Of a stretch of DNA of 31,188 nucleotides, positions 3,438 to 25,000 are shown one piece after another. The notes under the pieces are model-generated. The model saw only the letters and a list, made by a program, of their open reading frames with translations, searched no databases and was not told where the DNA came from. Both the position numbers and the translations under genes were made by a program. The stretch is from a virus. The DNA lies in IMG/VR virus record IMGVR_UViG_3300027963_000221, positions 1 through 31,188 of that record; one strand, given 5' to 3'. Positions within the stretch are counted from its first letter, which is position 1, and every line of letters begins with the position of its first letter.

Positions 3438-3657
3438 TTTCATTGGGCTACCCCTTGCCACCCTAACTTCGTTGCGTGATAAATATATCACTTGCCTAGA
3501 AGCGATTGCGGTGGCTGGGTCAAGCTATTCGATAGCGGGACGCTCTTTTTCGAGGGCGAATCTTGGGGAAGTTCGTGATACCATCGCAGAGTTAACCCTT
3601 GCCATCCAGTCTGTCAACGGCACTCGTATCCGCACGACCTACGCCAACTTCTCGTGA
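3424..3657 (+). CDS. gpW-like head-tail connector protein
   Basis: This 77-residue protein has the size and pattern of lambda gpW: an N-terminal helix (LATLTSLRDKYITCLEAI), a beta hairpin (SYSIAGRSFSRANL) and a second helix (GEVRDTIAELTLAIQS). Its location between large terminase and portal is the gpW position. The ATG at 3424 is preferred over the TTG at 3418 because GAGGAGG (3411-3417) lies 6 nt upstream. A TTGACA hexamer (3405-3410) also precedes it. The end overlaps the GTG start of the portal gene. gpW joins the head after packaging. Confidence 0.7.
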   Translation: MAKGDFIGLPLATLTSLRDKYITCLEAIAVAGSSYSIAGRSFSRANLGEVRDTIAELTLAIQSVNGTRIRTTYANFS

Positions 3658-6600
3658 AAAAAGCCCAGCTAAACTTAATCGATAAAGCGGTTGCCTTTCT
3701 GAACCCGCAAGGGGCAGTTAATCGGATGATTGCACGGCAGAAGCTCGTCAACTTCTCTTACGACGCAGTCAAATATACAAGGGAACGCAAAGGGCCGAGT
3801 TCGCTTTCTGGTGCGGAAGATTATCGTTCTAATTACGACCGAGTAGAGTTAATGAAAAGGGCGAGGGACTTGGCAGAGAATGTTGGCCTTGTTCGCTCCA
3901 TCCTTATGAAGTTCGCCAGTCATACAGCCGCAAACATCTCCTACCAAGCCCGAACTGAGAATCCCGAAGTGAACAGCGATGTAGAAGCATACTGGTCAGA
4001 GTGGTGGGACAAGTGTGACATCTCAACAAGGCACACCGGCTCAACCCTTATGCAAGTAGCGGTGATGAGTATGCTCCGAGATGGAGACTTTCTTTTTGCC
4101 CTAGTGCGAGACAAGGAAGGCGATCTTAAACTCCAAGGCATCGAAGCAGACCGAGTGGGCGACCCATTCAAGGTTTATACAAGCCTAGATTTGATCGGTG
4201 GAATCCATATAGACCGAACGACTGGCGCACCCTCGGCTTATGATATTTATTCAAGGAGCATCGGGGATTTCTACACCTACCAAGCAACCATCCCCGCAAG
4301 CCAAGCCTTTCACCTATTCGACCCACTTCGCATCGATCAATATCGGGGAGTAAGTGCTTTCCATACTGCTATCAACGACTGCACGGACATTTACGATATC
4401 GTGAACTTTGAGAAGATGGCGGCACGAGTTGCCTCTTCTCAATCCGCAGTTGTTCGCAGGAATAACAACAATGCCTCCGACCTCTCCACGCTCACAAACG
4501 ATGAGAATGTTAATGGCGATACGATTAAGCTAGAAGCGATTGAGTCGGGCAAAATCTCCTACCTAGAACCGGGTGAAGATATTGTGTTTCCCGATGGGCC
4601 GAGCCGTCCCTCTGGTGCGTTTGCAGAGTTTCACAAGATTCTCCTCCGCAATATCTGCCTTGGCCTTGGCATCCCTTACAGCTTCGCCGTTGACCCATCC
4701 GCTATGTCTGGCCCGACTGCAAGACTTGAGATGCAACAAGCAGGGCGCACCTTCCGCAGATACCAGAAGCTTATCGATGACAAGGTTCTGCGACCAATCA
4801 AAAACATCGTACTTGCCGATGCCGTCTCTCGTGGATTGATCGAAAACAATTTGGGAAGCAGAACAACCAAGGGCATATTCAATTTCGGGGCTAATGTATC
4901 TATTGATTTAGGCAGAGAATCAGCCTCAGCCATCTCCGAGTTCAAGACCGGACTCCGCACCGCCGCCGACATCTACGCAGAGCGAGGGCAAGATTTTGAA
5001 AGTGCTATGAGACAAAGGGCGATTGAGGCCAAGTTAGTCAAGGATTTGGCAAGTGAATACGAAGTTTCAGCAGATACAATTTCCGACATCGCCGCAGAGG
5101 GATTGACCAGAGATTCCCAACAAGCACAAGCAACCCCAGCCGAGGGCGAACAGAAACCCGCAGGACAACCCTCGGACGAGGATATGCTTGGCGGTGCTTC
5201 ACTCAATGGAGCGCAAGTTGCCTCTCTTATCAATGTTATCAATGCCGTGGCGATGGGCGCAGTTTCCAAGGAAGGTGCAGTATCTATTATCACGGCGGCC
5301 TTCCCAACCATCAGCCCAGACCAAGCAAGGGCAATCGTGGCGGGAGTCAACATTGGCACAACTATCCCCACGACCAAAGAAGAGAAACAGCAGATCGCAA
5401 AAGACCAAGAAGGGGATTCTTCGGGAGGCTCAACACCCCCAGCCCCAGAACCCACCACACCACCGACCGCCCCCACGGCAACATCACAAAAAAAAAGTAG
5501 TTTAGAGATTTTAGAAAGCCTCGACCCAGCTTCTATTAAGATGCTGATTGAGGGGATGATGGGTGGGATTGAGTTGGCAAAATACGATGGGATTGATTTT
5601 ACCCCACCAGAAGGAGCTAGGGAGGCCGCTAAAAGAGCCTTGGATGTGCGGGAGACGAAACCATCCAGCCAAAGGGGGATGACCCCTGTTGGCATCGCTA
5701 GGGCTAGAGATTTAATCAATGGGGTGAAGATGTCGCCCGACACAGTTCGCAGAATGAAAGCATTTTTCGATAGGCACGAAGTCGATAAGAAGGGCGCAAC
5801 TTGGGATGAGGAGGGGAAGGGCTGGCAGGCGTGGCACGGCTGGGGTGGAGATGCTGGTTATGCTTGGGCAAGGAAAGTGGTTGGTCAGATGGAGGCAAGG
5901 GACAAGAAAGAACTAGCAGAACCAGCCTCTTGCCCAATCGCAACCCAAGACATCAAAACAAATCTAGCCAATAGGCAGACAGCCGTGGACGATGCAAACT
6001 ACGGCCCAGCCAATCCAAACGAACCAAATGAGGACTACTGGAAGGCCAAGGCAGACGAGTTCCAAGGCGATGTAGTCACGGCAAAGAAGATGCTTTGTGG
6101 TAATTGTGCGGCTTTTAACCAAACAAGCAAACTCCTTGGATGTATTAAGAAGGGGATTGGTGAGGATGCGAATGAAGTAGCAGTTGGTGGCGATCTTGGT
6201 TACTGCGAGATTTTTGATTTTAAGTGTGCGGCCAAAAGGACTTGCGACGCTTGGATTGTAGGCGGGCCGATTACGGACAAGAAAGAAGAACTAGCCCGAC
6301 CAGTAAGCCAAACCCCTGCCCCTCCTAAAGAGAGAATCAAAGGCTCAAAGGAAAACCCAAAAGGCACGGCATCGACCCGGAGCAAGGCTGGCGACATTGA
6401 GATTTCAGAACAGAACGAAGAAGCCCTAAAGAATAAGATTGCCGAGTTCAAGGACAAGCATCCCTCAAGGAAAGCCCCTAGCCTTGGAGCATTAAAGAAA
6501 GTGTTTCGCAGGGGGGCGGGTGCGTTCTCGACTAGCTTCCGACCTACTATCAGCGGGGGCAAACCCAATTCAAGGAACGCTTGGGCGATGGCTAGAGTGA

Positions 6601-6674
6601 ACAAGTTTCTAAAGATGGCTGGTGGGGGTGAGGTTAAGAAGTCATACCGAGCGGCAGACGGCGATCTCCTTTGA
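3654..6674 (+). CDS. Portal protein (lambda family) with a large multidomain C-terminal extension
   Basis: Residues 1 to about 470 form a lambda-family portal: MKRARDLAENVGLVRSILMK, the DGDFLFALVRDKEGDLKLQ segment, and YRGVSAFHTAI before the clip and crown helices. The protein has 1006 residues, roughly twice a normal portal. After two low-complexity linkers (about 485-510 and 585-615, rich in Pro, Thr, Gln) come extra domains: a helical module with GIARARDLINGVKMSPDTVR and HEVDKKG (about 672-745); a Cys/Trp-rich module with CGNC, GYCEIF and CDAW (about 814-865); and a basic C-terminus with RRGAGAFSTSFRP (about 925-1006). These extras look like structural modules found fused to various environmental phage proteins; their function is unknown. 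The start is GTG at 3654, overlapping the gpW stop. Confidence 0.85.
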   Translation: MKKAQLNLIDKAVAFLNPQGAVNRMIARQKLVNFSYDAVKYTRERKGPSSLSGAEDYRSNYDRVELMKRARDLAENVGLVRSILMKFASHTAANISYQARTENPEVNSDVEAYWSEWWDKCDISTRHTGSTLMQVAVMSMLRDGDFLFALVRDKEGDLKLQGIEADRVGDPFKVYTSLDLIGGIHIDRTTGAPSAYDIYSRSIGDFYTYQATIPASQAFHLFDPLRIDQYRGVSAFHTAINDCTDIYDIVNFEKMAARVASSQSAVVRRNNNNASDLSTLTNDENVNGDTIKLEAIESGKISYLEPGEDIVFPDGPSRPSGAFAEFHKILLRNICLGLGIPYSFAVDPSAMSGPTARLEMQQAGRTFRRYQKLIDDKVLRPIKNIVLADAVSRGLIENNLGSRTTKGIFNFGANVSIDLGRESASAISEFKTGLRTAADIYAERGQDFESAMRQRAIEAKLVKDLASEYEVSADTISDIAAEGLTRDSQQAQATPAEGEQKPAGQPSDEDMLGGASLNGAQVASLINVINAVAMGAVSKEGAVSIITAAFPTISPDQARAIVAGVNIGTTIPTTKEEKQQIAKDQEGDSSGGSTPPAPEPTTPPTAPTATSQKKSSLEILESLDPASIKMLIEGMMGGIELAKYDGIDFTPPEGAREAAKRALDVRETKPSSQRGMTPVGIARARDLINGVKMSPDTVRRMKAFFDRHEVDKKGATWDEEGKGWQAWHGWGGDAGYAWARKVVGQMEARDKKELAEPASCPIATQDIKTNLANRQTAVDDANYGPANPNEPNEDYWKAKADEFQGDVVTAKKMLCGNCAAFNQTSKLLGCIKKGIGEDANEVAVGGDLGYCEIFDFKCAAKRTCDAWIVGGPITDKKEELARPVSQTPAPPKERIKGSKENPKGTASTRSKAGDIEISEQNEEALKNKIAEFKDKHPSRKAPSLGALKKVFRRGAGAFSTSFRPTISGGKPNSRNAWAMARVNKFLKMAGGGEVKKSYRAADGDLL

Positions 6675-9259: not shown

Positions 9260-10912
9260 TTGAAATATCCTATCTCCACCTATTTAATTGCAGGCAATGA
9301 AGAAGAATACATTGGCCGATGTTTGGAAAGTTTCAAACCCATTTCAGCGGAGCTTGTTGTCTGCATCGCTAGGGGGAATCTTGTCCCAGACAAAACAGAA
9401 GAAATTGCAAAAGCTCTGGGTGCGAAAATCGTTCACTACCAGAATCAAAGAACTGATTGGCCTCACATAGACGATTTTGCTACGGCAAGGAACACGGCTC
9501 TTGGTGCGTGTTCAAACGAGTGGTGTTTATGGGTAGATGCTGACGATGTAATGGCCGAGGATGGGGCAAAGGTTGTCGAAGAAGCTATTGACCTTGCCGT
9601 TGAGAAAGACGCTCATTTAGTAGCGTTAAAATATTGGGTTGAAAATGCTGGTTTGTTGCCCCTCCGAGAAGAAATCTCCAAGAGGGGGACTTGTAATTGG
9701 AAGAACCGAGTCCACGAAATGCTTGTTACTAAAGAGCCAAACAAGACTATTGGGCTAGATAAGATTTTCAGAATCCACAAACCTAACGGCTATAAGGCCA
9801 AAAGTGCGGAAAGGAACTTTAACATTTTAGCCGACACGCTTTCCACCGCCCCCAACGCCCTTTACTACCAAGCACAAGAATACTTCCTATCAAATCAGAT
9901 GGACAAGTGTATTGATTCTAGCTTGCGAGCCTTAGCCTTTTCAGAGCTAGAGGATACGCTTCGCTATGATGTGCTTTGCAATCTTGGCCGATGCGTTCCA
10001 GACAATGAGAGGCTTTCTTATCTAGGGCAAGCAGTAGCCCTACAACCAGACCGCCGAGAGGCTTATTTTTATATAGCAAACCATTGGGCAGGGAAGGGCA
10101 ACTGGATAAAGACCTACGGCTCGGCAAGGGCTTGTATGACTTTGCATAGACCTAAAACCCACTACTGGAATCTTGTCGAAGCAATCTACAACTGGCAAGC
10201 GATGGACTTATACGAGACGGCTTCGGTGTGTGTGGGAGAGGATGGCGAAGCTGAAAAGATTAAGAAGATGCGACCCGCCCCCAAGATCAGCATTATCCAC
10301 GCAACCAAGGGGAGGCCGCAAGTAGCTTGGCAAAGACGCTGGCAATGGCTTTCCCTAGCCCAAAAACCCCTAGAGGTTGAATGGTTGTTTATGGTAGATC
10401 ACGATGAGGCCGTTGACTACACCCCCCACCAAGCAATCCGAGTGAATCCCGGAGGCATCGTCAACGCTTGGAACGCAGGGGCAAAGTTAGCCAAAGGGGA
10501 TATCATCATTCAAATGAGCGATGACTGGACACCACCCCGCCATTGGGATGCCCTAATTTCGACCGCTATGGGGGATACAGCGGGGGAGAAAGTGCTGGCA
10601 GTATCAGATGGCCTACGACAAGACAAACTCCTTTGTATGGCGATTCTGACGCAATCGAGGCTCAAGAAGCAAGGGCATCTATTCCACCCCGACTACCAAG
10701 ACTCGGACGGCATTTACTCGGATAACGAGTTCACGGATAGAGCCTATGCAGAACAAGCCGTGGTTGATGCTAGACATATCCAGTTTAAGCACGATAACCC
10801 TATGTTTACTGGCGGCCAACCAGACGAACAACTAAAGAACCACAACAAGCCGGAGTTCTACGAGAAAGGAAAAGCAATCTATGAAAAACGCAAAACAAAT
10901 AATTGGATGTAG
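9260..10912 (+). CDS. Two-domain glycosyltransferase (GT2-like N-terminal, second GT-A-like C-terminal)
   Basis: Residues 1 to about 180 match a family 2 glycosyltransferase: ISTYLIAGNEEEYIGRCLES, a DDFATARNTAL helix, and the metal/nucleotide-sugar box WVDADD (Asp93-Asp96). Residues about 185-325 are helical and repeat-like (YYQAQEYFLSNQMDKCIDSS, ALQPDRREAYFYIANHW), similar to TPRs. From about 337 a second GT-A-like domain begins (PKISIIHATKGRP) with MVDHDE near 378-383 and MSDDWTPP near 419-426. At 550 residues it could transfer two sugars in sequence. The start is TTG at 9260, because the frame is closed at 9230-9232 and no ATG is available; there is no clear Shine-Dalgarno sequence. The target is unknown. 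Confidence 0.82.
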   Translation: MKYPISTYLIAGNEEEYIGRCLESFKPISAELVVCIARGNLVPDKTEEIAKALGAKIVHYQNQRTDWPHIDDFATARNTALGACSNEWCLWVDADDVMAEDGAKVVEEAIDLAVEKDAHLVALKYWVENAGLLPLREEISKRGTCNWKNRVHEMLVTKEPNKTIGLDKIFRIHKPNGYKAKSAERNFNILADTLSTAPNALYYQAQEYFLSNQMDKCIDSSLRALAFSELEDTLRYDVLCNLGRCVPDNERLSYLGQAVALQPDRREAYFYIANHWAGKGNWIKTYGSARACMTLHRPKTHYWNLVEAIYNWQAMDLYETASVCVGEDGEAEKIKKMRPAPKISIIHATKGRPQVAWQRRWQWLSLAQKPLEVEWLFMVDHDEAVDYTPHQAIRVNPGGIVNAWNAGAKLAKGDIIIQMSDDWTPPRHWDALISTAMGDTAGEKVLAVSDGLRQDKLLCMAILTQSRLKKQGHLFHPDYQDSDGIYSDNEFTDRAYAEQAVVDARHIQFKHDNPMFTGGQPDEQLKNHNKPEFYEKGKAIYEKRKTNNWM

Positions 10913-11135
10913 GAAAGCAAAAAAGTGGGAAGATACCAGCGGGCTCGGTATGATTAAATTCGGGAAGTCTCGCCCCGACCCCACCAAGTATGTGAAGGTT
11001 GATATTACCTATGACGAAAAAGCGGAGAAAGATTTGTATGAGTGCGGGATGATTGCGTTGAAGCACGACAAGGAAGCTGTCATTCAATATGTGATTGTTA
11101 AGGCTCTTACTGGGTACGCAAAGTGCAAGAAATAA
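10881..11135 (+). CDS. Hypothetical protein in the glycan island (84 aa)
   Basis: This 84-residue basic protein is not recognised. It overlaps the end of the two-domain glycosyltransferase by 32 nt and the start of the methyltransferase-like gene by 13 nt, so it is translationally coupled on both sides. The ATG at 10881 has AAAGGA about 10 nt upstream. A second in-frame ATG at 10950 would give a 61-residue form starting MIKFGKSRPDPTKYVKVDI, which looks like the beginning of the folded part. The C-terminus is helical and Lys-rich (KALTGYAKCKK). Confidence 0.6.
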   Translation: MKNAKQIIGCRKAKKWEDTSGLGMIKFGKSRPDPTKYVKVDITYDEKAEKDLYECGMIALKHDKEAVIQYVIVKALTGYAKCKK

Positions 11136-11734
11136 GCATCCACGACCCCTTTGGCCAAGCCCTTTCAAAATATAGCGACGGGCTTGAGGTTGGGTTAGAG
11201 ATCGGGGGAGGAACTGGGGATGGCTCAACTCAATGTATCAGAACCAAAAAGCTATTCAGCATTGAGAACCACCCAGACCGCATAGGCCGTCATTCGATGA
11301 ACCTATCTGCAAGAGGTGGTGTTGCCATCAACGGCACGGCAACCCTATCAAAGCTCTGGATGAACAAGAACGACATCGAGCAATTCTATCGAACCACCAA
11401 AACAAATCTCAACCAATACCCACTCGAAACAGTTCTGGGCTGGCACAATGTCTGCCTAGAAACCGCCTTTCCTTATTCAACCAACGCCATCGAGGACATT
11501 CACTTTGAGCATAATGTAGACTTTGATTTTGTGCTAATTGATGGTTCGCCATTTTCGGGTGAGGCAGAATTGCGTTGCGTCCGTCCCTTCCTAGCAGATA
11601 AGGCAATCATCGCACTAGACGATGTGAACGACATAAAGAACCACACCAACTACCACAAGCTCAAGGGATTTGCCAAACTGCTCTGGGAGGATTTAACCCT
11701 CCGCAACGGCTCGGCCATCTTCCAATTATGCTAA
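11123..11734 (+). CDS. Class I SAM methyltransferase-like protein
   Basis: The 203-residue protein has the outline of a small Rossmann-fold methyltransferase of the Methyltransf_24 kind. The SAM-binding loop is GLEIGGGTGDGST (about 24-36), followed by a strand with FSIENHPDR at the motif II position and a late DFVLIDGSPFSGEAELR (about 133-149) where these enzymes have an acidic post-motif strand, then IIALDDVND. This family is often found with glycosyltransferases and may methylate sugars. GTG at 11123 is the only start giving the full domain, and it overlaps the upstream gene. Flanking genes suggest a role in completing the same glycan. Confidence 0.65.
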   Translation: MQEISIHDPFGQALSKYSDGLEVGLEIGGGTGDGSTQCIRTKKLFSIENHPDRIGRHSMNLSARGGVAINGTATLSKLWMNKNDIEQFYRTTKTNLNQYPLETVLGWHNVCLETAFPYSTNAIEDIHFEHNVDFDFVLIDGSPFSGEAELRCVRPFLADKAIIALDDVNDIKNHTNYHKLKGFAKLLWEDLTLRNGSAIFQLC

Positions 11735-12495
11735 CCATCTTTACCATCGTCCTCAATGGGATGCCCTACATCCAAAGGCATCTAGCAGAGTTTCAGAAGT
11801 TAAAGATTCCGTGGGAGTGGAGGATTGTCGAGGGAGTGGCCGAGCCTCTTGGATGCACCCGCTGGTGCAAGCAAGTTCCAGAGAAGTACCATAAGAACTT
11901 TGTGAGCGTGGATGGAACGCACGAATATCTTGAGAGCATTAGGGGCAAGAATGTTTCAGTCTATTGGCAAGCAAAGCCCTTCCTCGGCAAGCTAGCGATG
12001 ATTAACGAGGCATTGAAGGGGGTGGAGAATGGCGTTGTGATGGAGATTGATTCCGATGAGATATGGAGAGCCGACCAGCTAGAAGCAATCTTTGGGCATC
12101 TCAAGGGTTGCGAGGAAGGGCGAGCGATGCAGTTCCATTGCAATTATTATGTGGGGCAGAATAAAAAAGTTGTGACTAGGGAAGGATTTGGTTCGCATTG
12201 GTACGAATGGTTTAGGGCTTGGAAGTGGGGCAAGGATGTTCACTTTATCAGCCACGAACCGCCCAAACTTAATGTCCAGTCGATGATGATTCCGAGGGGA
12301 GTGACAGAAACTTGGGGGCTAACCTTCGACCACTTCGCCTACGCCATAAAGGAGCAAGCCCAATTCAAGGAAGATTTCTATGGGTATAAGGGGCTAGTCG
12401 AGGGATGGGAAAGGCTACAACAAACCACTAACCCAGTTAGGTTGAGAGATTATTTACCATTTATAACAGATAAGAGCGTTGCCGATGAGTGTTAA
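11728..12495 (+). CDS. Glycosyltransferase family 2-like protein
   Basis: This 255-residue protein starts like a GT-A glycosyltransferase (MLTIFTIVLNGMPYIQRHLA) and has the DxD-type box MEIDSDE (Asp108-Glu111) after the helix LGKLAMINEALKGVENGVV. The second half, with many aromatic and His residues (HWYEWFRAWKWG, TFDHFAYAIKEQAQFKEDFY), resembles the acceptor-side region of phage and bacterial GT2 relatives. It overlaps the methyltransferase-like gene by 7 nt and the GT9-like gene by 11 nt, so the four genes probably form one translational unit. Confidence 0.72.
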   Translation: MLTIFTIVLNGMPYIQRHLAEFQKLKIPWEWRIVEGVAEPLGCTRWCKQVPEKYHKNFVSVDGTHEYLESIRGKNVSVYWQAKPFLGKLAMINEALKGVENGVVMEIDSDEIWRADQLEAIFGHLKGCEEGRAMQFHCNYYVGQNKKVVTREGFGSHWYEWFRAWKWGKDVHFISHEPPKLNVQSMMIPRGVTETWGLTFDHFAYAIKEQAQFKEDFYGYKGLVEGWERLQQTTNPVRLRDYLPFITDKSVADEC

Positions 12496-13156
12496 AACTA
12501 TTAAGTATTCGCAGAGGTTGGGGGATGTGCTTCGTTGCTTGCCAGCCGCCAAACATCTAGCCGACCAAGGCCACGAAGTTTTCTTTGATTGCTTGCCTCA
12601 ATATCATTCAGTCTTTGATTTAGTTAGTTATGTGAAGGCCGGAAGCAAGGGGGATATTATTGATTTGGAAGTATGGCCAAATCGTTATGAGGAATATCGC
12701 AAGAGCAAAAGAAGTTGGACTGATTTTGTGTATAGCCATCCAGAGATTAAGGATGCAGATAAGACGAACATTATTTTAGATAAGCTGGACGATAAACCAG
12801 CCGAGGGACTTCCAGAGACTTACAATCTAGTGGCCGCCTTTGGCAATAGTCAAGGATTCTATCGCAATCCTCTCGACATAATCACCAAGGCAAGAACTGA
12901 TATGGGCAAGGACAACTTCTATGTGATGACCCCACCAGAGATTCAGATTCAAGGACTTTCTACCTATACCGCACCAAGTGTTTCAGAGATGGCGAAGGCA
13001 ATCAGAGGGGCAAAAGATTTCTGGGCTATCAATAGCACCCCGATCATTCTTGCGTCAGTAGTGAGAAGGGGCAAACCTACTGCCTTCTTCCCCCAAAAGA
13101 ACGAGTGGGAAACTGATAATATTTTCGACTTTGAGGGTATGTTTAGGATGGATTGA
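12485..13156 (+). CDS. GT9-like (heptosyltransferase-type) glycosyltransferase
   Basis: The N-terminus IKYSQRLGDVLRCLPAAKHL followed by GHEVFFDC matches the opening of GT9 (ADP-heptose:LPS heptosyltransferase-like) proteins, and the C-terminal part has SEMAKAIRGAKDFWAINSTP and ASVVRRGKPTAFF, like their nucleotide-sugar-binding half. At 223 residues it is shorter than bacterial GT9 enzymes (about 350). ATG 12485 is preferred over TTG 12479. Its stop codon lies inside the TTGACA element before the next gene. It is the last gene of the glycan island. The donor sugar cannot be deduced. Confidence 0.6.
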   Translation: MSVKTIKYSQRLGDVLRCLPAAKHLADQGHEVFFDCLPQYHSVFDLVSYVKAGSKGDIIDLEVWPNRYEEYRKSKRSWTDFVYSHPEIKDADKTNIILDKLDDKPAEGLPETYNLVAAFGNSQGFYRNPLDIITKARTDMGKDNFYVMTPPEIQIQGLSTYTAPSVSEMAKAIRGAKDFWAINSTPIILASVVRRGKPTAFFPQKNEWETDNIFDFEGMFRMD

Positions 13157-13172: not shown

Positions 13173-13490
13173 ATGGCTGGAACAATCAGCACCTCCTACT
13201 TTGCAACGGACTTGTCCTATATGATTCAAGACCTATACCAATCCGTTACTGGCTTGGGTTCGTCCTCTGTTTCTGCTTCTGTTACCGACCTATCCACAGC
13301 AAGCGAACTTGAAATAGGCGGGGAGGTATTTAGAGTCACCCAGAGCCTTGTTGTTTTGGCTTCTGGAATCTCTGCCCCAGTTATCGGCTCTCTTTGCACA
13401 GTTAGCGGGGTGGAGCGTATGATCGGAGGATTTTCGCAAAGCACAGATGGCCTTTCCTACACCATCGAACTTGCGGAAATTACAACCTAA
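13173..13490 (+). CDS. Putative head-tail joining protein
   Basis: The 105-residue product has an N-terminal Ser/Thr-rich helical stretch (FATDLSYMIQDLYQSVTGLG) and a C-terminal beta region (LEIGGEVFRVTQSLVVL, SYTIELAEITT). Its position before the tail-completion pair and its beta-rich form suit a head-tail joining (gpFII/stopper-type) protein; sequence evidence alone is weak. The ATG at 13173 is fixed by the strong ribosome-binding site; the frame is open further upstream to 13131, but that would overlap the GT9-like gene. The TAA overlaps the next ATG (TAATG). Confidence 0.6.
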   Translation: MAGTISTSYFATDLSYMIQDLYQSVTGLGSSSVSASVTDLSTASELEIGGEVFRVTQSLVVLASGISAPVIGSLCTVSGVERMIGGFSQSTDGLSYTIELAEITT

Positions 13491-13906
13491 TGGCCTCAAT
13501 AGAGAGGGAGGTTGAGAACGCCCTCCTTAATGTTGTCTCTGGTATTACTGGCGTGAACTTCTTTACTAGCGAGAGGGGAACAGCTCGCACGATGCCTAGC
13601 GTCACGGTTCAATCCACCATCAGCGGAGAGGAGCTTGTGCCTTTCTCTGGTGTATTCAAAGCCCCTGCCTCTATTACCTATGTGGCAAGGGCAGACACTA
13701 CTGCAAGAGCCGACTTCGATGCCAAGTTTTATGACATCCTAGAACAACTCTATCGTGACCCAGACTTGGCAAGCTATCTTACAGCTAATTCAAATATTAC
13801 TTTCTATGTGGCAAAGGTGACTGGGGATAATCCCGCCGTGATAAGTCAAAACCGAACTTGGTCAAGGGCGATGACTTTAGACATCACGGCAACTGCAAAG
13901 AAATGA
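13490..13906 (+). CDS. Tail completion/terminator-like protein, paralogue 1
   Basis: This 138-residue protein starts with a helix (IEREVENALLNVVSGITGVNFF), then PSVTVQSTISGEELVPFSG, a helix around ARADFDAKFYDILEQLYRD, and beta strands ITFYVAKVTGD and TWSRAMTLDITATAK. This alpha/beta pattern fits small tail terminator or tail completion proteins. It shares the whole order with the next gene, so the two are tandem paralogues. It starts in a TAATG overlap with the joining protein gene and ends in an ATGA overlap with its paralogue. Confidence 0.65.
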   Translation: MASIEREVENALLNVVSGITGVNFFTSERGTARTMPSVTVQSTISGEELVPFSGVFKAPASITYVARADTTARADFDAKFYDILEQLYRDPDLASYLTANSNITFYVAKVTGDNPAVISQNRTWSRAMTLDITATAKK

Positions 13907-14394
13907 ACAACAGCGTTCAAATCAATGTGGAGGATGCTTTAGAGAATCTTCTTGCGAACATCCCCAATCTCAATGTCTATAAGACTAATCGGGTGGGGGC
14001 AAAGCTATTCCCATCAGCCACAATCTCGGCATCGGTTGGGGGACAGTTGCTTGGAAACTATACCGGAGTGTATGAAGTAGCCGTTACAATCGACTACTCC
14101 GACACAGCGGCCAAGATTAGCCAAGAGGCTTTTGACTCTGAATACTGTTCAATCTTTGAGGCTTTCTATTCTGAAACCAAGCCCCTCTTTACCAAGATTC
14201 AAAACAATATAGTCGATACAAAGGTTTATACGGCTCGCATTACTGGTCAAACCCCAACCATTAGAACGGCTAAAAGGGCTTGGCAAAGGGGGTTGAAGAT
14301 TAGCCTTATATGCACCCCATCAGAACTAGACGATGGCTTGCGGTCTTTGAACTTCTCACAGAGACAAAACTCAATGTATGTGGCAGTCATTTAA
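13903..14394 (+). CDS. Tail completion/terminator-like protein, paralogue 2
   Basis: The 163-residue product aligns along its length with the preceding protein: VEDALENLLANIPNLNVY against VENALLNVVSGITGVNFF, FPSATISASVGGQLLGNYTG against the corresponding PSVTVQ strand region, and KVYTARITGQTP with KRAWQRGLKISL near the end. It has an extra C-terminal tail of about 25 residues rich in Ser, Asn and Gln. ATG 13903 (ATGA overlap with the previous stop) is preferred over the upstream ATG at 13858, which lies well inside the previous gene. A TTAACA element containing its stop codon follows. Confidence 0.65.
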   Translation: MNNSVQINVEDALENLLANIPNLNVYKTNRVGAKLFPSATISASVGGQLLGNYTGVYEVAVTIDYSDTAAKISQEAFDSEYCSIFEAFYSETKPLFTKIQNNIVDTKVYTARITGQTPTIRTAKRAWQRGLKISLICTPSELDDGLRSLNFSQRQNSMYVAVI

Positions 14395-17200: not shown

Positions 17201-17236
17201 ATGAAAAATACACTTTCTAACGAGGTTTCAATCTAA
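17201..17236 (+). CDS. 11-residue leader mini-ORF coupled to the tail tube gene
   Basis: TTGACA (17180-17185) and AAAGGAG (17191-17197) precede an ATG at 17201 that reads MKNTLSNEVSI and stops with TAA at 17234-17236, overlapping the ATG of the next gene (TAATG). The tail tube gene itself has only GAGG about 10 nt upstream, inside this mini-ORF. The arrangement suggests that ribosomes loaded at the leader reinitiate on the tail tube gene, or that the leader regulates it. The Shine-Dalgarno spacing to the leader ATG is short (3 nt after GGAG). Confidence 0.45.
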   Translation: MKNTLSNEVSI

Positions 17237-17583
17237 TGGCGGCCGTTACTATTGGCACGCAGGGCTTGTCCTTCGGCTTGGTTGGGGAAGCTGGTATCGG
17301 ACTGGTTCAGAGCTTTTCAGAGGCTCGTAATGTTGAGAAAAATGAGGTGCGAAATAATTTGGGCGATATAGTTGCCATCGGATACTTCAACGCCACGACC
17401 TCCTATTCACTCTCTGTTGCTATTACTGGCTCGTACAATGTGACCGCAGGGGCGGCTCTTGCGGCGTTGGCAAATGCAACCACTCTAGGCACAACTCGCA
17501 TCGACTCCATCACGCTAAACAAGTCTAACGATGCCTTTGTGACCCTCGATATCTCGGCTACTGGCTACCCGAACGTAACTTAA
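17236..17583 (+). CDS. Putative major tail (tube) protein
   Basis: The 115-residue protein is beta-rich: VTIGTQGLSFGLVGEAG, NLGDIVAIGYFNATTSYSL, SVAITGSYNVT and a terminal VTLDISATGYPNV strand. This pattern, in which the NLGDIVAIG loop is followed by paired strands, fits a minimal tail-tube fold. The gene lies just upstream of the gpG/gpGT unit and the tape measure candidate, where the major tail protein is expected. It is shorter than lambda gpV because it lacks an Ig-like C-terminal domain. Expression is probably coupled to the 11-residue leader. A hairpin follows its stop. Confidence 0.6.
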   Translation: MAAVTIGTQGLSFGLVGEAGIGLVQSFSEARNVEKNEVRNNLGDIVAIGYFNATTSYSLSVAITGSYNVTAGAALAALANATTLGTTRIDSITLNKSNDAFVTLDISATGYPNVT

Positions 17584-17584
17584 T

Positions 17585-17601
17585 AGAGGTTCTAAACCTC
17601 T
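17585..17601 (+). other. Small RNA hairpin after the tail tube gene
   Basis: AGAGGTT (17585-17591) and AACCTCT (17595-17601) form a perfect 7-bp stem with a CTA loop, starting 2 nt after the stop codon. No T-tract follows, so it is not a normal terminator. It could protect the 3' end of a tail tube message, act as an RNA-processing site, or cause partial attenuation. Confidence 0.5.
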
Positions 17602-17619
17602 TAATGAAATCCTAAACTT

Positions 17620-17994
17620 ATGACCGAAGCCTACTGGGGAACGACTAATATAAAAGTAGCGAGTGCCGTTGCTTCCTTTGGGGCAAAGCCAAGACAACTC
17701 GACCCAGTAACGAGAACTATTAAAGAAAGCGGGGAGGTTCAGGCTACCTTCTGGTTCGAGGCTGGGGCAGGGGCAGAGGCAAAGGCAGAAATGGAACGCC
17801 CTTGGTCAGAAATGAGGAGCGACCCAGAAAGCCCTATTAGGTATGTTCGAGCGGCCTTGGAGAACCGAGAAACCTTCTTGGGGCTTCTCAAGAGGGCAGT
17901 TCCGGTGCGGGTGATACAAAGGGGCGGGCAAACTCTACTCATCTCAGAAAACGCAACCTCGGAACAAAGAAGGGCAATCCTAAAGCATCTATGA
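17620..17994 (+). CDS. Hypothetical tail-region protein (124 aa)
   Basis: This 124-residue protein is not recognised. It begins MTEAYWGTTNIKVASAV, has a central AGAGAEAKAEMERPWSEMR helix, and an alpha-helical, basic C-terminal half (RRAILKHL). Between the tail tube and the gpG-like chaperone it could be a tail assembly factor. Its TGA overlaps the ATG of the chaperone gene (ATGA), so the two are probably translated together. Confidence 0.6.
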   Translation: MTEAYWGTTNIKVASAVASFGAKPRQLDPVTRTIKESGEVQATFWFEAGAGAEAKAEMERPWSEMRSDPESPIRYVRAALENRETFLGLLKRAVPVRVIQRGGQTLLISENATSEQRRAILKHL

Positions 17995-18371
17995 GCATAT
18001 CCCTCGATGAAGAACTAAACTCGGCCTTTATATCCCCAGAAAAGGAGTTTATGGGCGAGAAACTAGCACCCTATACGGAAGGCTCTCGCTTGCTCCTTTT
18101 GCAAGTAAGGGACGATAACGACTCCTCGATCTACTTTATATGGTCGTTCATCTATATGCACATCCAAATTGCCAAGAGTAGGAAAGAAGCGATCAAACTG
18201 GCTTGGAATCGGGACTTGTTTCGTGAAAAAATTATGGACTTTATTGAGGGCAAGACAGAAGCAGATCGAGATATAGCCACTCAAATCGTCTCTAGCATTT
18301 TGGACGAAGCTCAAAAAGGCAGAGTTGATGTTATCCCAGCCCCTCATCAGCCAGACTTGGGAAACGCCTAA
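17991..18371 (+). CDS. Tail assembly chaperone, gpG-like
   Basis: The 126-residue product is mostly helical and acidic (LSISPEKEFMG-type N-terminus, then SSIYFIWSFIYMHIQIAKSR and a C-terminal helix DRDIATQIVSSILDEAQKG). Size, position just before the tape measure candidate, and the slippery heptamer near its 3' end match lambda gpG and its counterparts. It would bind the tape measure protein and prevent aggregation during tail assembly. Most ribosomes should stop at TAA 18369-18371; a minority should shift into the -1 frame. Confidence 0.75.
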   Translation: MSISLDEELNSAFISPEKEFMGEKLAPYTEGSRLLLLQVRDDNDSSIYFIWSFIYMHIQIAKSRKEAIKLAWNRDLFREKIMDFIEGKTEADRDIATQIVSSILDEAQKGRVDVIPAPHQPDLGNA

Positions 18372-18577
18372 CGCCAGCGGGAACAGCAAGTTTTGTGTTC
18401 TCGTTGGCAGAACGAACCGGTTGGAGCATAGATTATATCTTATGGAACATTCCTTTAGCCCTAATAACTCAAGCAACTCATACCTATCTATGGCAAAATG
18501 GAGCGAAGTGCCGGCGGGTGCTTACAGAGATAGGTGAGGATAGGGAAAACCTAGAGAGGCTATTGGGTATAGTTTAA
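17991..18577 (+). CDS. gpGT-like frameshift fusion of the tail assembly chaperone
   Basis: The -1 frame is open from 18329 to the TAA at 18575-18577. After slippage on G GGA AAC the ribosome would continue at 18365 with RLTPAGTASFVFSLAERTGW and a T domain (SIDYILWNIPLALITQATH) for a total of about 195 residues. The T domain resembles second tail chaperone domains (AERTGW-x-I pattern). It would contact the tail tube protein in the gpGT manner. A GTG at 18395 could also start the T part on its own, but the exact slippery heptamer in the overlap makes fusion the better reading. Confidence 0.8.
18359..18365 (+). promoter_or_regulatory. Programmed -1 ribosomal frameshift site G GGA AAC
   Basis: GGGAAAC lies in the correct phase (X XXY YYZ = G GGA AAC) relative to the gpG-like frame, two codons before its stop. 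It falls inside the 43-nt region where both frames are open. Lambda uses G GGA AAG at the same gene boundary. No clear upstream Shine-Dalgarno-like stimulator or downstream pseudoknot was found by eye. Confidence 0.88.
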
Positions 18578-18593
18578 CACAAAGAAGAAGTTT

Positions 18594-19370
18594 ATGGGCA
18601 ATCTATTCAAATTAGATGTGACGGAGTTTAATAGGACGATTGACCTATACTTAGACCTCACACGCCGAGACAGAATCAATGAGCTTAATCGCAGGGCGGC
18701 TAACATTTGTGCAAGGGCAAGCAAGCTAACAAAAAGATCAGACCCAGAAGATATTGTCGATGATATGAAAGCGGTTGAAACAGTTACGGCTTCTTATGTT
18801 AAAAAGACAAAGAAAAGGGGTGAGTATGTTGCACTAAGCAAGGGTGGAAAGACAACACAGAAGCAAGCAACTGTTAATTATATGGGTAGTCAAGAGGCTT
18901 TCAAGATTGCAAATTGGAGGCTTGCTAGAGGAAAAAGATTAGGATTCTACAATAAGTTTCCAGCTAAATTGGCAGGGCCGGGTAAGGGCAAAAAGGGAGG
19001 GACAGCAAGCCAGTTCTATAATAAGTTTGTTAAGCGAGCAAAGTCATCAGCCGGATACATTGCCGCTGGTTGGTTGCCAGCCTTCTATCATTTTAGCAGA
19101 AAGACTATTGGGAAAACAATTCAGCCAGATAATGTTTTATTAAAATTCTTCAGGGCATTAAAAGGAAGTGCTGGGCTAGGATACGGAATTGACAATGTTT
19201 TTGCTGAAGGCGATGTGATTAAGGCAGTATTTGTTAATGCGGCCGCAGGAGTAGCAAAAATTGGGCAAGGTTCTTTGCAAAATGCAATCAATGAAGAAGA
19301 GGCCGATATGAAGGAAAAGATTGCTGAAAAGCAACAAGAGATTGCTGACAAGGTTAATAGAATAAGGTAA
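18594..19370 (+). CDS. Hypothetical basic tail-associated protein (258 aa)
   Basis: The protein has an N-terminal helical region (FKLDVTEFNRTIDLYLDLTR), then a Lys/Gly-rich central part (KKTKKRGEYVALSKGG, GPGKGKKGGTASQFYNKF), a segment with SSAGYIAAGWLPAFYHFSRK, and a helical C-terminus with many Glu and Gln (MKEKIAEKQQEIADKVNRI). No family is recognised. Its location between the tail chaperone and the tape measure candidate suggests a tail assembly or minor tail role. TTAACA, containing the upstream stop, lies 20 nt before the ATG, with AAGAAGAAG as a weak ribosome-binding site. Confidence 0.6.
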   Translation: MGNLFKLDVTEFNRTIDLYLDLTRRDRINELNRRAANICARASKLTKRSDPEDIVDDMKAVETVTASYVKKTKKRGEYVALSKGGKTTQKQATVNYMGSQEAFKIANWRLARGKRLGFYNKFPAKLAGPGKGKKGGTASQFYNKFVKRAKSSAGYIAAGWLPAFYHFSRKTIGKTIQPDNVLLKFFRALKGSAGLGYGIDNVFAEGDVIKAVFVNAAAGVAKIGQGSLQNAINEEEADMKEKIAEKQQEIADKVNRIR

Positions 19371-19375
19371 TATAT

Positions 19376-20680
19376 ATGGCTTTTGTATTAAAAGGAGAGA
19401 TCGAGCTTGATGGACGCAAGGCCACGACTGGCTTGCGGGCAGTTCAGAAAGAAGCCACAAAGACGGCTAGCACATTCAAGCAATCTGACGCATCGGCTCA
19501 AAAGCTGGGCAAGACGCTTGTTAGTCTTGGGCTTAATGCAAGCAAGGCGGGGACATCCCTAGGTATGTTGGCAAGGCTTGGAACTGGTGGAATCTTTGGG
19601 TATGCCGTTATCGGCGCAATGAATAAGTTTGGGGAAACAGTCAAACAAGCATCGACAGATTATTATTCAGCACAAAAAGATTTAGCAGATGCCTTTGAAA
19701 CATCTTTCAAAAGCACAAGTGTTGACCAAGCAAGGGCAGGGCTGGAAAAGACTCAAGATACAATCGAATCTTTGCGTGGGAAAATAACTCAACTCGGCCC
19801 TATGGCAGGAATAATGAAGGGGATAGAAAAAGTATTTAACCTTGATCTTGGTGTATCCAGCACAGAAAAAACACTTAAAGACACTCAAGCTCTTTTAGAC
19901 TCAGAAATGCAGTTGCTCGCAACAAGACAGCAAGAAGAAAAGATAACAAAGCAAGGAAAAGAAGAAGCAGAAAACACAGAGCGAACAGTTAAACAAAATA
20001 AGATACTTCGCCAGCTAAATGCGGTAAGAAATAAAACACAAGCAGATTTTGTTACTGACGCAAAGGCAGAGTTAGAATTAGCAAAATATCAACTTGCTTT
20101 AATAAATCAACAAATAGAGCAATTATATAAGTTAAAAGATGTTGGTGTAAATATAAAACTAATAGATGATCTTACCAGAAAGGGAAGAGAAAAAGACCTA
20201 GAGGTGGCACAAAAAAGACTATCACTTGAACAAGCCTCTCAAAAACGAAAAGCTGATGTCGCAAAAGTTGCCTCAGAGACTGGCGGTGGCATACTTGGTG
20301 CAAGCAAGGCTGGTGGTCAAGCTCTCGATTTGGCTAGAAAACAAAGGGAACGACAATTAAAGACAGAAAATTTTAAGGTTGCCGAGAAGATTGCCCCCAC
20401 CCAAAGGGACAGAGAAAAGCTGGCCGCACAACAAGCCGCAGGAGAGATGCCGTCATTGGGAGAAAAGATTCGAGGAGGTCTAACCGGCGTTGACCCATCA
20501 CAACTTGCAAGGGAATCGGCCGCAACTAAATTTGAAAAAGACCGATCAGTTGGCAAGGGCACACTTGGTAGTCCACCAATAGGCGAATTAGGCAAAGAAC
20601 AAAGTAGTTTAGGTAAAGAGACTTTACAAGCAATCAAGGCATTGGTTGACCTTATGAAATCTGGGCCACTTGTAAATTAA
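19376..20680 (+). CDS. Putative tape measure protein (short)
   Basis: This 434-residue, Ala/Lys/Gln-rich helical protein follows the gpG/gpGT unit. It begins LKGEIELDGRKATTGLRAVQ, has an Ala/Gly-rich segment (SLGMLARLGTGGIFGYAVIG, about 60-82) that may be the membrane-interacting part, then long coiled coils (TEKTLKDTQALLDSEMQLLA; EELARQKRERQ-like repeats) and a Gly/Pro-rich C-terminus. This is the tape measure profile, though short. By the usual relation of about 0.15 nm per residue the tail would be about 65 nm. The start is in the motif ATATATGGC with no Shine-Dalgarno sequence. Confidence 0.55.
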   Translation: MAFVLKGEIELDGRKATTGLRAVQKEATKTASTFKQSDASAQKLGKTLVSLGLNASKAGTSLGMLARLGTGGIFGYAVIGAMNKFGETVKQASTDYYSAQKDLADAFETSFKSTSVDQARAGLEKTQDTIESLRGKITQLGPMAGIMKGIEKVFNLDLGVSSTEKTLKDTQALLDSEMQLLATRQQEEKITKQGKEEAENTERTVKQNKILRQLNAVRNKTQADFVTDAKAELELAKYQLALINQQIEQLYKLKDVGVNIKLIDDLTRKGREKDLEVAQKRLSLEQASQKRKADVAKVASETGGGILGASKAGGQALDLARKQRERQLKTENFKVAEKIAPTQRDREKLAAQQAAGEMPSLGEKIRGGLTGVDPSQLARESAATKFEKDRSVGKGTLGSPPIGELGKEQSSLGKETLQAIKALVDLMKSGPLVN

Positions 20681-21843: not shown

Positions 21844-23277
21844 ATGGCTCAAAGTTTAGACCTATATATTGACACAACTAATGGCAATTTGGTAGCCGCT
21901 GGTTCTGCAAAAGATGGAAGTTTGCCAGTAATAACAAGAAATGATTATTCTAAATTAAGAGTTAGATTATTAGAAACAGATAAAAAAGGATTTTATAGAG
22001 ACATTGACTTATCAAATACCTCTGTGCAAGTTGGGATTGGGGAAATTAACGCTGGGCCTAGTTCTGGCAGTTTTAAGCTAACAAGAAATTCTGTAACATC
22101 TTTAGAAATTCAATATAACGCAACAACAACAGATTTATATAATGCGATTTCTGGCATTGCTGGCCTTGGTGTTAGTGTAGCAACTTATGGGATTGAGCCA
22201 TTCTCCTATTTAATAACAGCGGCAACAGACAATACGGCCTTATCTCTAGGAGGCTCTTCATTCACGCTATTCCCAACAAGTTCAGTAGCAATTAGTACAA
22301 GGAAGTTTCCTGCCCCATCGGCAAAAGCACAGCAAATTATTAAACTTATAAGAAATACAGCAGTATATTCTGATGTTTTTACCATAAGTCCAACCGCAGG
22401 AGTTGTAACATTAAGCAAGGTGCAGGATGGCTCTGCAACCCAAAATGAAACATATTCTCTTGCAATCGGGTCGGACGCAGTTGGTGGGTCAGTCGTTCTT
22501 AATTATGGGCAGAATACAACTACTGCTATTGCAGTTGGCTCTAGCGCATTGGTATTTTCTGATGCGTTATCTTCCGTAACTGGAATTGGAGCTGGAAACA
22601 TAAGCGTAGATTCCGGTAATAATACCGGCGAATACTCAATCTCTTTTGTTCGCAATCTTGGTTTGCAGAATATTACAACAGCACTTACTTTGGACTCTGC
22701 TGGCGTTATATATGCAAAATTCCTTCAAACCACAATTACAATGGCAACGGCAGAGCTTAATGAATTGTTTGCAGAGGAAGCTCTATCTGAATTTACAAAG
22801 AGCCTAGAGGTTAAATTAGTTCAGCCAAATAATTTAAGAACCATTTACCAAGGCCCAATTACAATTCGTGCCGGGCTAGTTGATACATCCAATATTGTTC
22901 CAGCACAGCAAGCGTCATATTATACCAAGGCAGAATGCGATTCTCTCTTTGCCACCAATCCACCAACATTCCCTGCCTTGAATAATTATTATACAAAGAC
23001 TGAGTCTGATGGTCGTTACTCAACTACTGCCGCCTTGAATAATTATTATACAAAGACTCAGTCTGATGGTCGTTACTCAACTACTGCCGCCTTGAATAAT
23101 TATTATACAAAGACCGAGTCTGATGGTCGTTACTCAACTACTGCCGCCTTGAATAATTATTATACAAAGACCGAGTCTGATGGTCGTTACCTAACCACTA
23201 CCGCCTTTACATCAGTAACTATCAATGTATGCTCAAATGGAAGTCCAAGCACTTTGGTTGTTTTGCGCTACTCATAG
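21844..23277 (+). CDS. Tail fibre protein A with YYTK repeats
   Basis: Residues 1 to about 350 of this 477-residue protein form an N-terminal beta-rich region (AQSLDLYIDTTNGNLVAAGS, GFYRDIDLSNTSVQVGIGEI, AELNELFAEEALSEF) shared with the next gene. A segment with SYYTKAECDSLF then leads into four 19-residue repeats NNYYTKTESDGRYSTTAAL (about 379-454), a known kind of phage fibre shaft repeat, and a terminal NVCSNGSPSTLVVL strand. It is probably a trimeric receptor-binding or side fibre. TTGACC is 20 nt upstream of the ATG; AGAAG serves as a weak ribosome-binding site. Confidence 0.7.
   Translation: MAQSLDLYIDTTNGNLVAAGSAKDGSLPVITRNDYSKLRVRLLETDKKGFYRDIDLSNTSVQVGIGEINAGPSSGSFKLTRNSVTSLEIQYNATTTDLYNAISGIAGLGVSVATYGIEPFSYLITAATDNTALSLGGSSFTLFPTSSVAISTRKFPAPSAKAQQIIKLIRNTAVYSDVFTISPTAGVVTLSKVQDGSATQNETYSLAIGSDAVGGSVVLNYGQNTTTAIAVGSSALVFSDALSSVTGIGAGNISVDSGNNTGEYSISFVRNLGLQNITTALTLDSAGVIYAKFLQTTITMATAELNELFAEEALSEFTKSLEVKLVQPNNLRTIYQGPITIRAGLVDTSNIVPAQQASYYTKAECDSLFATNPPTFPALNNYYTKTESDGRYSTTAALNNYYTKTQSDGRYSTTAALNNYYTKTESDGRYSTTAALNNYYTKTESDGRYLTTTAFTSVTINVCSNGSPSTLVVLRYS
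22978..23205 (+). repeat. Four tandem 57-bp repeats in fibre A
   Basis: Copies start at 22978, 23035, 23092 and 23149. The unit encodes LNNYYTKTESDGRYSTTAA. Copies differ at few bases: GAG/CAG in the Glu/Gln codon and ACT/ACC, while the last copy diverges at its end. Such near-identical in-frame repeats can gain or lose units by slippage or recombination and would change the fibre length in 19-residue steps. Confidence 0.95.
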
Positions 23278-23299: not shown

Positions 23300-25000
23300 A
23301 TGGCTCAAAGTTTAGATATCTATATTGACACAACTAATGGTAATTTAGTGGCCGCTGGTTCTGCAAGAGATGGAACGCTAAAAACTTTTACCAGAAATGA
23401 CTCATATAATATTAGAGTCCGACTGCAAGAAAGAGATTCTAATGGGTTTCTTCGAGATTTAGACACAACTGGTTCTTCGCTAAAATTGGGCATCGGCGGT
23501 ATTGATGCAGACCCAATAGACGGACAATTTAAGTTAATTCTGAATGCTGTAACATCAACCGCAATCTCTTTTAATGCTACCACAGCCCAATTATACAACG
23601 CTATTTCTGCGATTGCTGGAACTGGAGTTTTAGTAACTACTTACGGAAGCGAACAATATGCCTATCTAATCACTTCTGCAACGGCAAATAGCGCAATGTC
23701 ATTTGGGGCTTCTGCTTTTACTCTTTTCCCAACGAGTTCTGTTATTGTAAATACTCGACGATTCCCAGCCCCCTCTGTAAACGCCCAGCAAATCATTAAG
23801 CTAGTTCGCAATCCGGCTGTATATGCAGACACATTCGTTGCCTCTCCGACTGCTGGGGTTGTTTCTCTTACAAATATTCAAGACGGTTCTGCAACTCAAA
23901 ATGAAACATATAGTCTGGCCGTTGGCCCAGACGCAGAAGGCGGCTCAGTTATTCTTAACTTTGGAGCGAACTCGACAACCGCTATCCCGATAGGCTCAAA
24001 TGCCGCCAGTTTTGCAGAAGCATTAAGCTCTGTGACTGGAATTGGTAGTGGAAATATAAGTGTTGATCTTGGCAATAATGCAGGGAATTATTCGATTTCG
24101 TTTGTCCGTGCACTTGGGTCAACTGCTATCACCACTCCTCTGACGCTAGATGCAAGCGGAGTTATCTTTGGGAAATTCTTGCAGTCTGTTGTGACTTTTG
24201 CGACCGCAGAGCTTGATGAATTGTTTGCAGAGCAGGGAACAAACACAGTTACTCCCACACTAGAAATTGAGCTTGTGCAAGCAGGCTCGCCTAAAACAGT
24301 CTTACAAACTGATGTTACAATACGCCGTGACCTAATAAGCACCGGGTCGGCAGTACCAGCGGCTCAAGCCAGTTATCTTACGGCCTCCGAAAGTTACGCC
24401 GCTTTTGTTGCTAATTCGACGACTGGCGTAAATTCCCTAGCTCGTGGCCTTGCTGATTCCTCTGCTGTAACATCAGTCGCCTTTGGTTCTAGGACGCTCA
24501 ATAATAGCTCTGGCACGGCAGTCGTTAGTTATGGGGCAGGGCTTTCCTTTGCCAATACCCCTATGGGATTTTATGGAGCAACAGTTACGGCAAAACCATC
24601 TGGAGTAAACATTGTCTCTGGCCTCACAAACCTTGGGCTTCTTTCATATACCCAGCCAACGGCGGTTAATGTTGTTTCTGGCCTTATTAATACTGGGCTA
24701 ATCGCAAGCGGGGTTAGCTACGGCGTTCTTCCACAATCTCCTTATACCGTCACAACACTTGCCTCAGTCACTTTTGGAACGCTAGCCGCAAACGATCAGC
24801 ATTATCGGGATGTAGTGGTTACTGGTGCGGCAGTAAATGATATTGTTTTGGTTGGATTGCCATCGGCAATTTCAGCGGGAGCAATTATTCAAGGCGTGGT
24901 TTATAAGACCAACACAGTCTGCTTATCTTGTGTAAATGCAGATAGTGTTTCAAGGGATGTAAATACCGCCACTTACCGCATCACCGTCATTGGTTATTAA
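23300..25000 (+). CDS. Tail fibre protein B, paralogue of fibre A with a different C-terminus
   Basis: The first 355 of 566 residues follow fibre A closely (AQSLDIYIDTTNGNLVAAGS, SATQNETYSLAVGPDAEGGS, ATAELDELFAEQGTN). After VPAAQASYLTASESY the protein has no YYTK repeats. Instead there is a Ser/Gly-rich beta region with the pair GVNIVSGLTNLGLLS and AVNVVSGLINTGLIAS, and a final module of about 85 residues (LASVTFGTLAANDQHYRDV, TATYRITVIGY) seen at the end of many environmental phage fibres. Fibre B may bind a different receptor. TTGACA is 21 nt upstream of the ATG. Confidence 0.7.
   Translation: MAQSLDIYIDTTNGNLVAAGSARDGTLKTFTRNDSYNIRVRLQERDSNGFLRDLDTTGSSLKLGIGGIDADPIDGQFKLILNAVTSTAISFNATTAQLYNAISAIAGTGVLVTTYGSEQYAYLITSATANSAMSFGASAFTLFPTSSVIVNTRRFPAPSVNAQQIIKLVRNPAVYADTFVASPTAGVVSLTNIQDGSATQNETYSLAVGPDAEGGSVILNFGANSTTAIPIGSNAASFAEALSSVTGIGSGNISVDLGNNAGNYSISFVRALGSTAITTPLTLDASGVIFGKFLQSVVTFATAELDELFAEQGTNTVTPTLEIELVQAGSPKTVLQTDVTIRRDLISTGSAVPAAQASYLTASESYAAFVANSTTGVNSLARGLADSSAVTSVAFGSRTLNNSSGTAVVSYGAGLSFANTPMGFYGATVTAKPSGVNIVSGLTNLGLLSYTQPTAVNVVSGLINTGLIASGVSYGVLPQSPYTVTTLASVTFGTLAANDQHYRDVVVTGAAVNDIVLVGLPSAISAGAIIQGVVYKTNTVCLSCVNADSVSRDVNTATYRITVIGY

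Follow-up and report, generated by a model that had tools for sequence, protein, structure and literature searches.

The overlap between two tail-module genes of an uncultivated phage very probably holds a hairpin-stimulated -1 programmed frameshift signal, made up of a slippery heptamer, a 7-nt spacer and a 13-bp stem-loop, that would yield a tail-assembly chaperone fusion as a minor product. We analyzed the 31,188 bases of the IMG/VR virus record IMGVR_UViG_3300027963_000221 (hereafter the window), in which the terminase and portal genes are of the lambda family. Judged by comparison with related sequences, the ribosome-slip signal is real, evolutionarily conserved and of a textbook kind. 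From it we infer the slip itself, what is said below of its rate, stimulation by the stem and the chaperone function of the products.

Anatomy of the frameshift site

The upstream gene is a frame-0 ORF of 126 codons (17991..18371, on the plus strand like the other parts of the site and the neighbouring tail ORFs). It starts at the ATG at 17991, stops at the TAA at 18369-18371 and is kept in all relatives. Its codons across the site read TTG GGA AAC GCC TAA, with the slippery heptamer G GGA AAC (18359..18365) two codons ahead of the stop. Between a preceding stop at 18326-18328 and its own TAA at 18575-18577, the -1 frame stays open (18329-18577), and it overlaps the frame-0 ORF by 43 nt (18329-18371). 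The post-slip part (18365-18574) comprises 70 codons, occupies the position of a gpT extension and contains the motif F.LA..TGW....I.W..P. The predicted fusion is 125 + 70 = 195 aa long. A first-pass annotation had placed the heptamer here in this phase, and re-reading the sequence bore this out; its limits for the -1 frame, its overlap and its fusion of about 195 residues were all correct on recount. That description captured the heptamer and the ORF anatomy but was incomplete, having overlooked the 3' stem-loop at 18373-18408.

In-frame heptamers of the form X XXY YYZ (Y = A or T) occur six times among the 7,396 codon sites of the 22 main ORFs. A stricter filter, applied to both strands of the whole window, demanded besides the heptamer a stop no more than 15 nt away, 60 or more codons upstream and a -1 frame open for 50 or more codons. 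Two sites passed, the heptamer at 18359-18365 and, within the portal gene, an A-run read in an overlapping frame.

The stem-loop that we propose as the frameshift stimulator has arms at 18373-18385 and 18396-18408 and a loop at 18386-18395. Its 13 bp, G-U pairing included, have a minimum free energy of -22.5 kcal/mol and begin 7 nt past the heptamer. The spacer (18366..18372) contains the frame-0 TAA and has the same length in all stem-bearing relatives. This distance falls within the 5-9 nt at which 3' structures of -1 frameshift signals usually lie downstream (PMC5009743). A search of the whole window against Rfam at gathering scores gave no match. No Shine-Dalgarno-like stimulator was seen ahead of the heptamer, where the upstream 25 nt are poorly conserved.

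In the mechanism that we propose, the majority of ribosomes would terminate at the TAA and release the 126-aa protein. With GGA in the P site and AAC in the A site, the base of the stem would stand at the mRNA entrance and slow translocation. A minority of ribosomes would re-pair one base back (GGA to GGG, AAC to AAA) and read on to 18577, producing the 195-aa fusion with its 70-residue second domain. The hairpin probably sets the frequency of this slip. In E. coli, an A-site AAC is usually less shift-prone than AAG. The frameshift rate is therefore not inferable here, and the weaker A-site codon offers a reason for having a stimulator. The Atkins review calls A-site AAC mammalian-like (PMC5009743). 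By analogy with lambda gpG and gpGT, coating of the tape measure would fall to the short form, and recruitment of the tail tube protein to the rare fusion. The ratio of short form to fusion would be expected to matter for tail assembly as it does in lambda, where it is about 30:1 (PMC5009743).

Conservation of the site and alternative readings

Relatives were gathered by three protein-guided scans of IMG/VR in which the heptamer was not a criterion, and in 94 distinct ones enough of each part was present to be read. All 94 carry an X XXA AAZ heptamer in the proper frame, 9-12 nt upstream of the last base of the stop, and have a -1 frame that stays open over roughly equal length. The heptamer is GGGAAAC in 85 relatives and CCCAAAC in 6, with GGGAAAG, GGGAAAT and GGGAAAA found once each. 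GGGAAAC is preceded by CCG, TTG, CAG, CTG, TCG, GTG or GAG, always with G as the third base, and CCCAAAC by CCC or AGC, always with C. The amino acid ahead of the heptamer varies (P, L, Q, S, V or E) while the third base needed for slipping stays constant. Likewise, GGGAAAC and CCCAAAC differ at three adjacent bases, and a switch from one to the other is compensated so that slipperiness is retained. Per-site identity to the window is 0.94-1.0 over the heptamer versus 0.17-0.78 in the preceding 30 nt. Given such conservation in 94 distinct relatives, we regard a chance origin of the heptamer as untenable. Substitutions in the -1 frame concentrate on its third codon positions (1309, 1001 and 2006 changes at positions 1, 2 and 3), which argues that this frame is translated downstream of the heptamer.

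The stem-loop recurs at equal spacing in essentially all relatives and is weakest in L117 and L118 (-13.5). Because it overlaps coding sequence, its stability was compared with that of synonymous shuffles, in which the -1-frame protein was kept and synonymous codons were redrawn from each locus's own usage. The stem was more stable than its shuffled versions in all 23 diverse representatives (z from -2.6 to -5.5; -4.9 in the window). Elsewhere across both ORFs, 51-nt segments gave mean z values of -1.3 to +0.4, and the segment overlapping the stem gave -1.65. In an ungapped alignment, 87% of the cells were paired; shuffling gave 81%, and sliding no more than 55%. Cells with double changes numbered 20 versus 6.8 in shuffles, or 28 versus 11.3 when five loci from metagenome-assembled genomes (MAGs) were added. 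At alignment pair 20-45, C-G is replaced by G-C or G-U: the third base of a Val (GTG/GTC) or Ser (TCG/TCT) codon changes synonymously, matching an Ala/Gly change in the opposite arm. Since the shuffles leave relatedness in place, we put weight on the tests taken together rather than on the shuffle count by itself. Selection at the RNA level acts on both the stem and the heptamer.

These results bear on whether the stem has a part in the shift at all. The lambda-type shift is said to need no stimulators (PMC5009743), and the heptamer might slip alone here as it reportedly does in lambda, the stem being kept for coding constraint, mRNA stability, or control of termination or reinitiation. Conserved residues of the second domain (P..A/G and L-A) do force part of both arms, and the distant Verrucomicrobiota prophages L258, L260 and L261 have a heptamer without a matching stem. 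We nevertheless consider this account improbable, because it does not explain why the stem is so much more stable than its synonymous versions, why third-position changes in one arm track amino-acid changes in the other, or why the spacing is constant at 7 nt, in the usual range for -1 stimulators.

Production of the second domain as a separate protein, by reinitiation or from its own start past the stop, is less probable still. In-frame GTG (18395) and TTG (18404) codons of the window's -1 frame could serve such a start, but this frame contains no ATG, and the stem would occlude 18373-18408. Since 93 of the 94 relatives lack a -1-frame ATG in the first 30 nt from the heptamer start, a separate start is not a conserved route. 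Over the first 90 nt, too, an ATG is lacking in most relatives, and those that occur (mostly at +69 to +81) fall within the conserved domain. Separate synthesis would also leave the conservation of the heptamer unexplained. Finally, although indel errors can create overlapping ORFs, the idea that a sequencing error or gene decay split one gene is refuted, its probability being negligible: MAGs and 94 distinct sequences drawn from many independent metagenomes share the identical arrangement.

Hairpin-stimulated frameshifting thus remains our preferred reading of the site. The first-pass annotation had proposed a programmed -1 frameshift joining two overlapping tail-module ORFs, and none of the 94 distinct relatives was found to keep both ORFs without a heptamer. 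With the compensated heptamer switches, the protein-like substitutions in the -1 frame and the covarying stem-loop, the comparative support for that proposal is strong.

The tail gene neighbourhood

The putative chaperone pair lies in a syntenic block (17236-20680) whose order in the relatives is a 115-aa ORF, a 124-aa ORF, the chaperone pair, a 258-aa ORF and a 434-aa ORF. The 115-aa ORF (17236..17583), syntenic in all relatives examined, is by position a candidate for the major tail (tube) protein. The 124-aa ORF (17620..17994) lies directly 5' of the frame-0 ORF and overlaps its start through an ATGA at 17991-17994; the two are likely to be translationally coupled. The 258-aa ORF (18594..19370) separates the putative chaperone from the 434-aa ORF and differs among relatives. 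The 434-aa ORF (19376..20680) is a candidate tape measure protein, as suggested by its position and by length variation; its counterparts in relatives are divergent and have 429-504 aa.

The product of the frame-0 ORF is a predicted short tail-assembly chaperone, a protein in the position of gpG. Its AlphaFold model is mostly helical (pLDDT 80). Pfam and the named PHROG tail-chaperone families gave no match to the putative chaperone, nor did PDB give an informative one by sequence profile or Foldseek. The best PHROG was phrog_11996, for which no function is given; the profile matches 12 of 16 members at the second-domain motif in the query protein. A tblastn search of 50,697 phage records with the fusion and its consensus returned nothing credible, as did searches with the tape-measure candidate, the tail-tube candidate and the capsid protein, and the 258-aa ORF gave only a weak partial match. 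Pfam and PHROGs searches likewise found no credible family match for any of the neighbouring ORFs, the tube and tape-measure candidates included. Known tail-assembly chaperones are highly divergent and are not defined by similarity, so the lack of it is weak evidence. The earlier label of gpG- and gpT-like domains fits in architecture and position, whereas matches in Pfam, named PHROGs and PDB that would back it are absent.

Other genes of the window were also inspected. The portal gene (3654-6674; 1006 codons) has a lambda-family portal in its first half and a long C-terminal extension that matches phrog_2859 and, weakly, DUF5824. An ORF near the terminase genes (91-555) resembles a ParB N-terminal domain below the Pfam cut-off. 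The region 9260-13156, which separates the major capsid gene from the tail genes, holds a block of ORFs, among them glycosyltransferase-2-like and methyltransferase-like ones, that may serve in glycan modification of the virion or the host. The tandem paralogous ORFs at 13490-13906 and 13900-14394 (26% identity, E 1e-20) are perhaps tail-terminator or completion proteins. Two adjacent paralogous ORFs (21844-23277 and 23300-25000) share 63% identity in their first 375 residues and diverge beyond; the first carries NNYYTKTESDGRYSTTAAL-type repeats at its C-terminal end, and the pair resembles tail fibres with swapped tips.

Distribution, host and known frameshift systems

We searched cellular genomes for the same arrangement. 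A narrow-alignment scan of bacterial and archaeal genome contigs found no match. A broad-alignment scan of 84,980 bacterial and archaeal genomes found five contigs, all labelled Verrucomicrobiota (Akkermansiaceae, Verrucomicrobia, Chthoniobacterales, Pedosphaera and Chthoniobacter). These five MAG contigs all retain the heptamer, the 7-nt spacer and the stem, with a frame-0 protein that is almost unrecognisable. Scanning IMG/VR with the second domain only added further contigs. Among the distinct ones listed, all share the cassette apart from L187, where the heptamer is an A-run (an A AAA AAA-type run around 3001, 24 nt before the end of the stop) and the downstream stem is a different one. 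In L190 and L229 the heptamer is visible and the contig end cuts off the remainder; L185 retains the spacing and the closing bases, and its predicted fold lacks the stem.

A second-domain profile matched 15 places in 14 of 387 Verrucomicrobiota genomes. Several readable places have a boundary heptamer (A AAA AAG, A AAA AAC, C CCA AAC or G GGA AAG) without the 7-nt stem; L259, L262, L265 and L270 were left out of these readings. Such places suggest that the frameshift arose earlier and is more widespread than the stem, which would mark a subgroup. The covariance model R1 found, beyond the known locus, only weak matches of up to about 25 bits in the 387 genomes, none with the cassette pattern at that place; one unrelated match to the pattern, with GGGAAA-type spacing, was in L159. 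A search of the same genomes with phrog_11996 gave zero matches, with no positive control to calibrate it.

The chances are about even that a lineage-specific hairpin, structurally conserved and frameshift-stimulating, sets the ratio of the two chaperone forms across a large group of Verrucomicrobiota phages whose heptamers have AAC in the A site, while distant Verrucomicrobiota prophages mostly use A-run heptamers without a hairpin. Within this one family of tail genes, a stimulator would then trade off against heptamer strength. We hold the trade-off loosely, since the L261 prophage, with C CCA AAC and no strong stem, is a counter-example.

The closest known system is lambda G/GT, whose -1 tail-assembly frameshift occurs at G GGA AAG and belongs to the dsDNA-phage class of Xu, Hendrix and Duda (2004). 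Our site differs from it in having C instead of G as the Z base, a strong 3' stem-loop that covaries and lies at 7 nt, and one ORF between the putative chaperone and the tape-measure candidate; similarity between the proteins was not detectable. GGGAAAC is already known at tail-chaperone frameshifts, and stem-loops have been predicted there from single sequences. Burkholderia phage KL1 has this heptamer with a downstream stem-loop predicted by Mfold (PMC3483164), and it is found in comparable genes of Caulobacter phage Colossus (PMC3556154) and haloarchaeal virus HCTV-1 (PMC5009743). The KL1 structure came from one sequence, whereas covariation extends here over dozens of lineages. The -1 frameshifts of dnaX and IS elements share a heptamer and a 3' stem-loop a few nucleotides downstream, but they concern a different gene, and our site has no apparent upstream Shine-Dalgarno-like stimulator.

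Among cultivated Verrucomicrobiota phages, Akkermansia phage Moulinsart (ON453896; L139) has an ORF (10632-11090) that ends in A AAA AAC (11081) and an open -1 frame that runs to 11332 and encodes a comparable second domain (ATGW...MPL...QY.H). Its heptamer differs from ours and the 7-nt stem is absent. The Moulinsart record lists two separate hypothetical proteins, with the frameshift unannotated and the second ORF begun at an internal ATG (11120). Since both the host of Moulinsart and the five MAGs point to Verrucomicrobiota, the phage of the window probably infects this phylum, although MAG contigs can be misbinned.

What is new is that comparison of relatives supports a conserved stem, resembling a 3' stimulator, across a large group of uncultivated phages that probably infect Verrucomicrobiota. 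The group would use a classical tail-gene frameshift, with a corrected gene product of 195 aa that automatic annotation splits or drops. It offers a good comparative case for a 3' RNA stimulator in tail-chaperone frameshifting, for which lambda reportedly requires no such element. With Verrucomicrobiota indicated as hosts, the cultivated Akkermansia phages provide a test bed.
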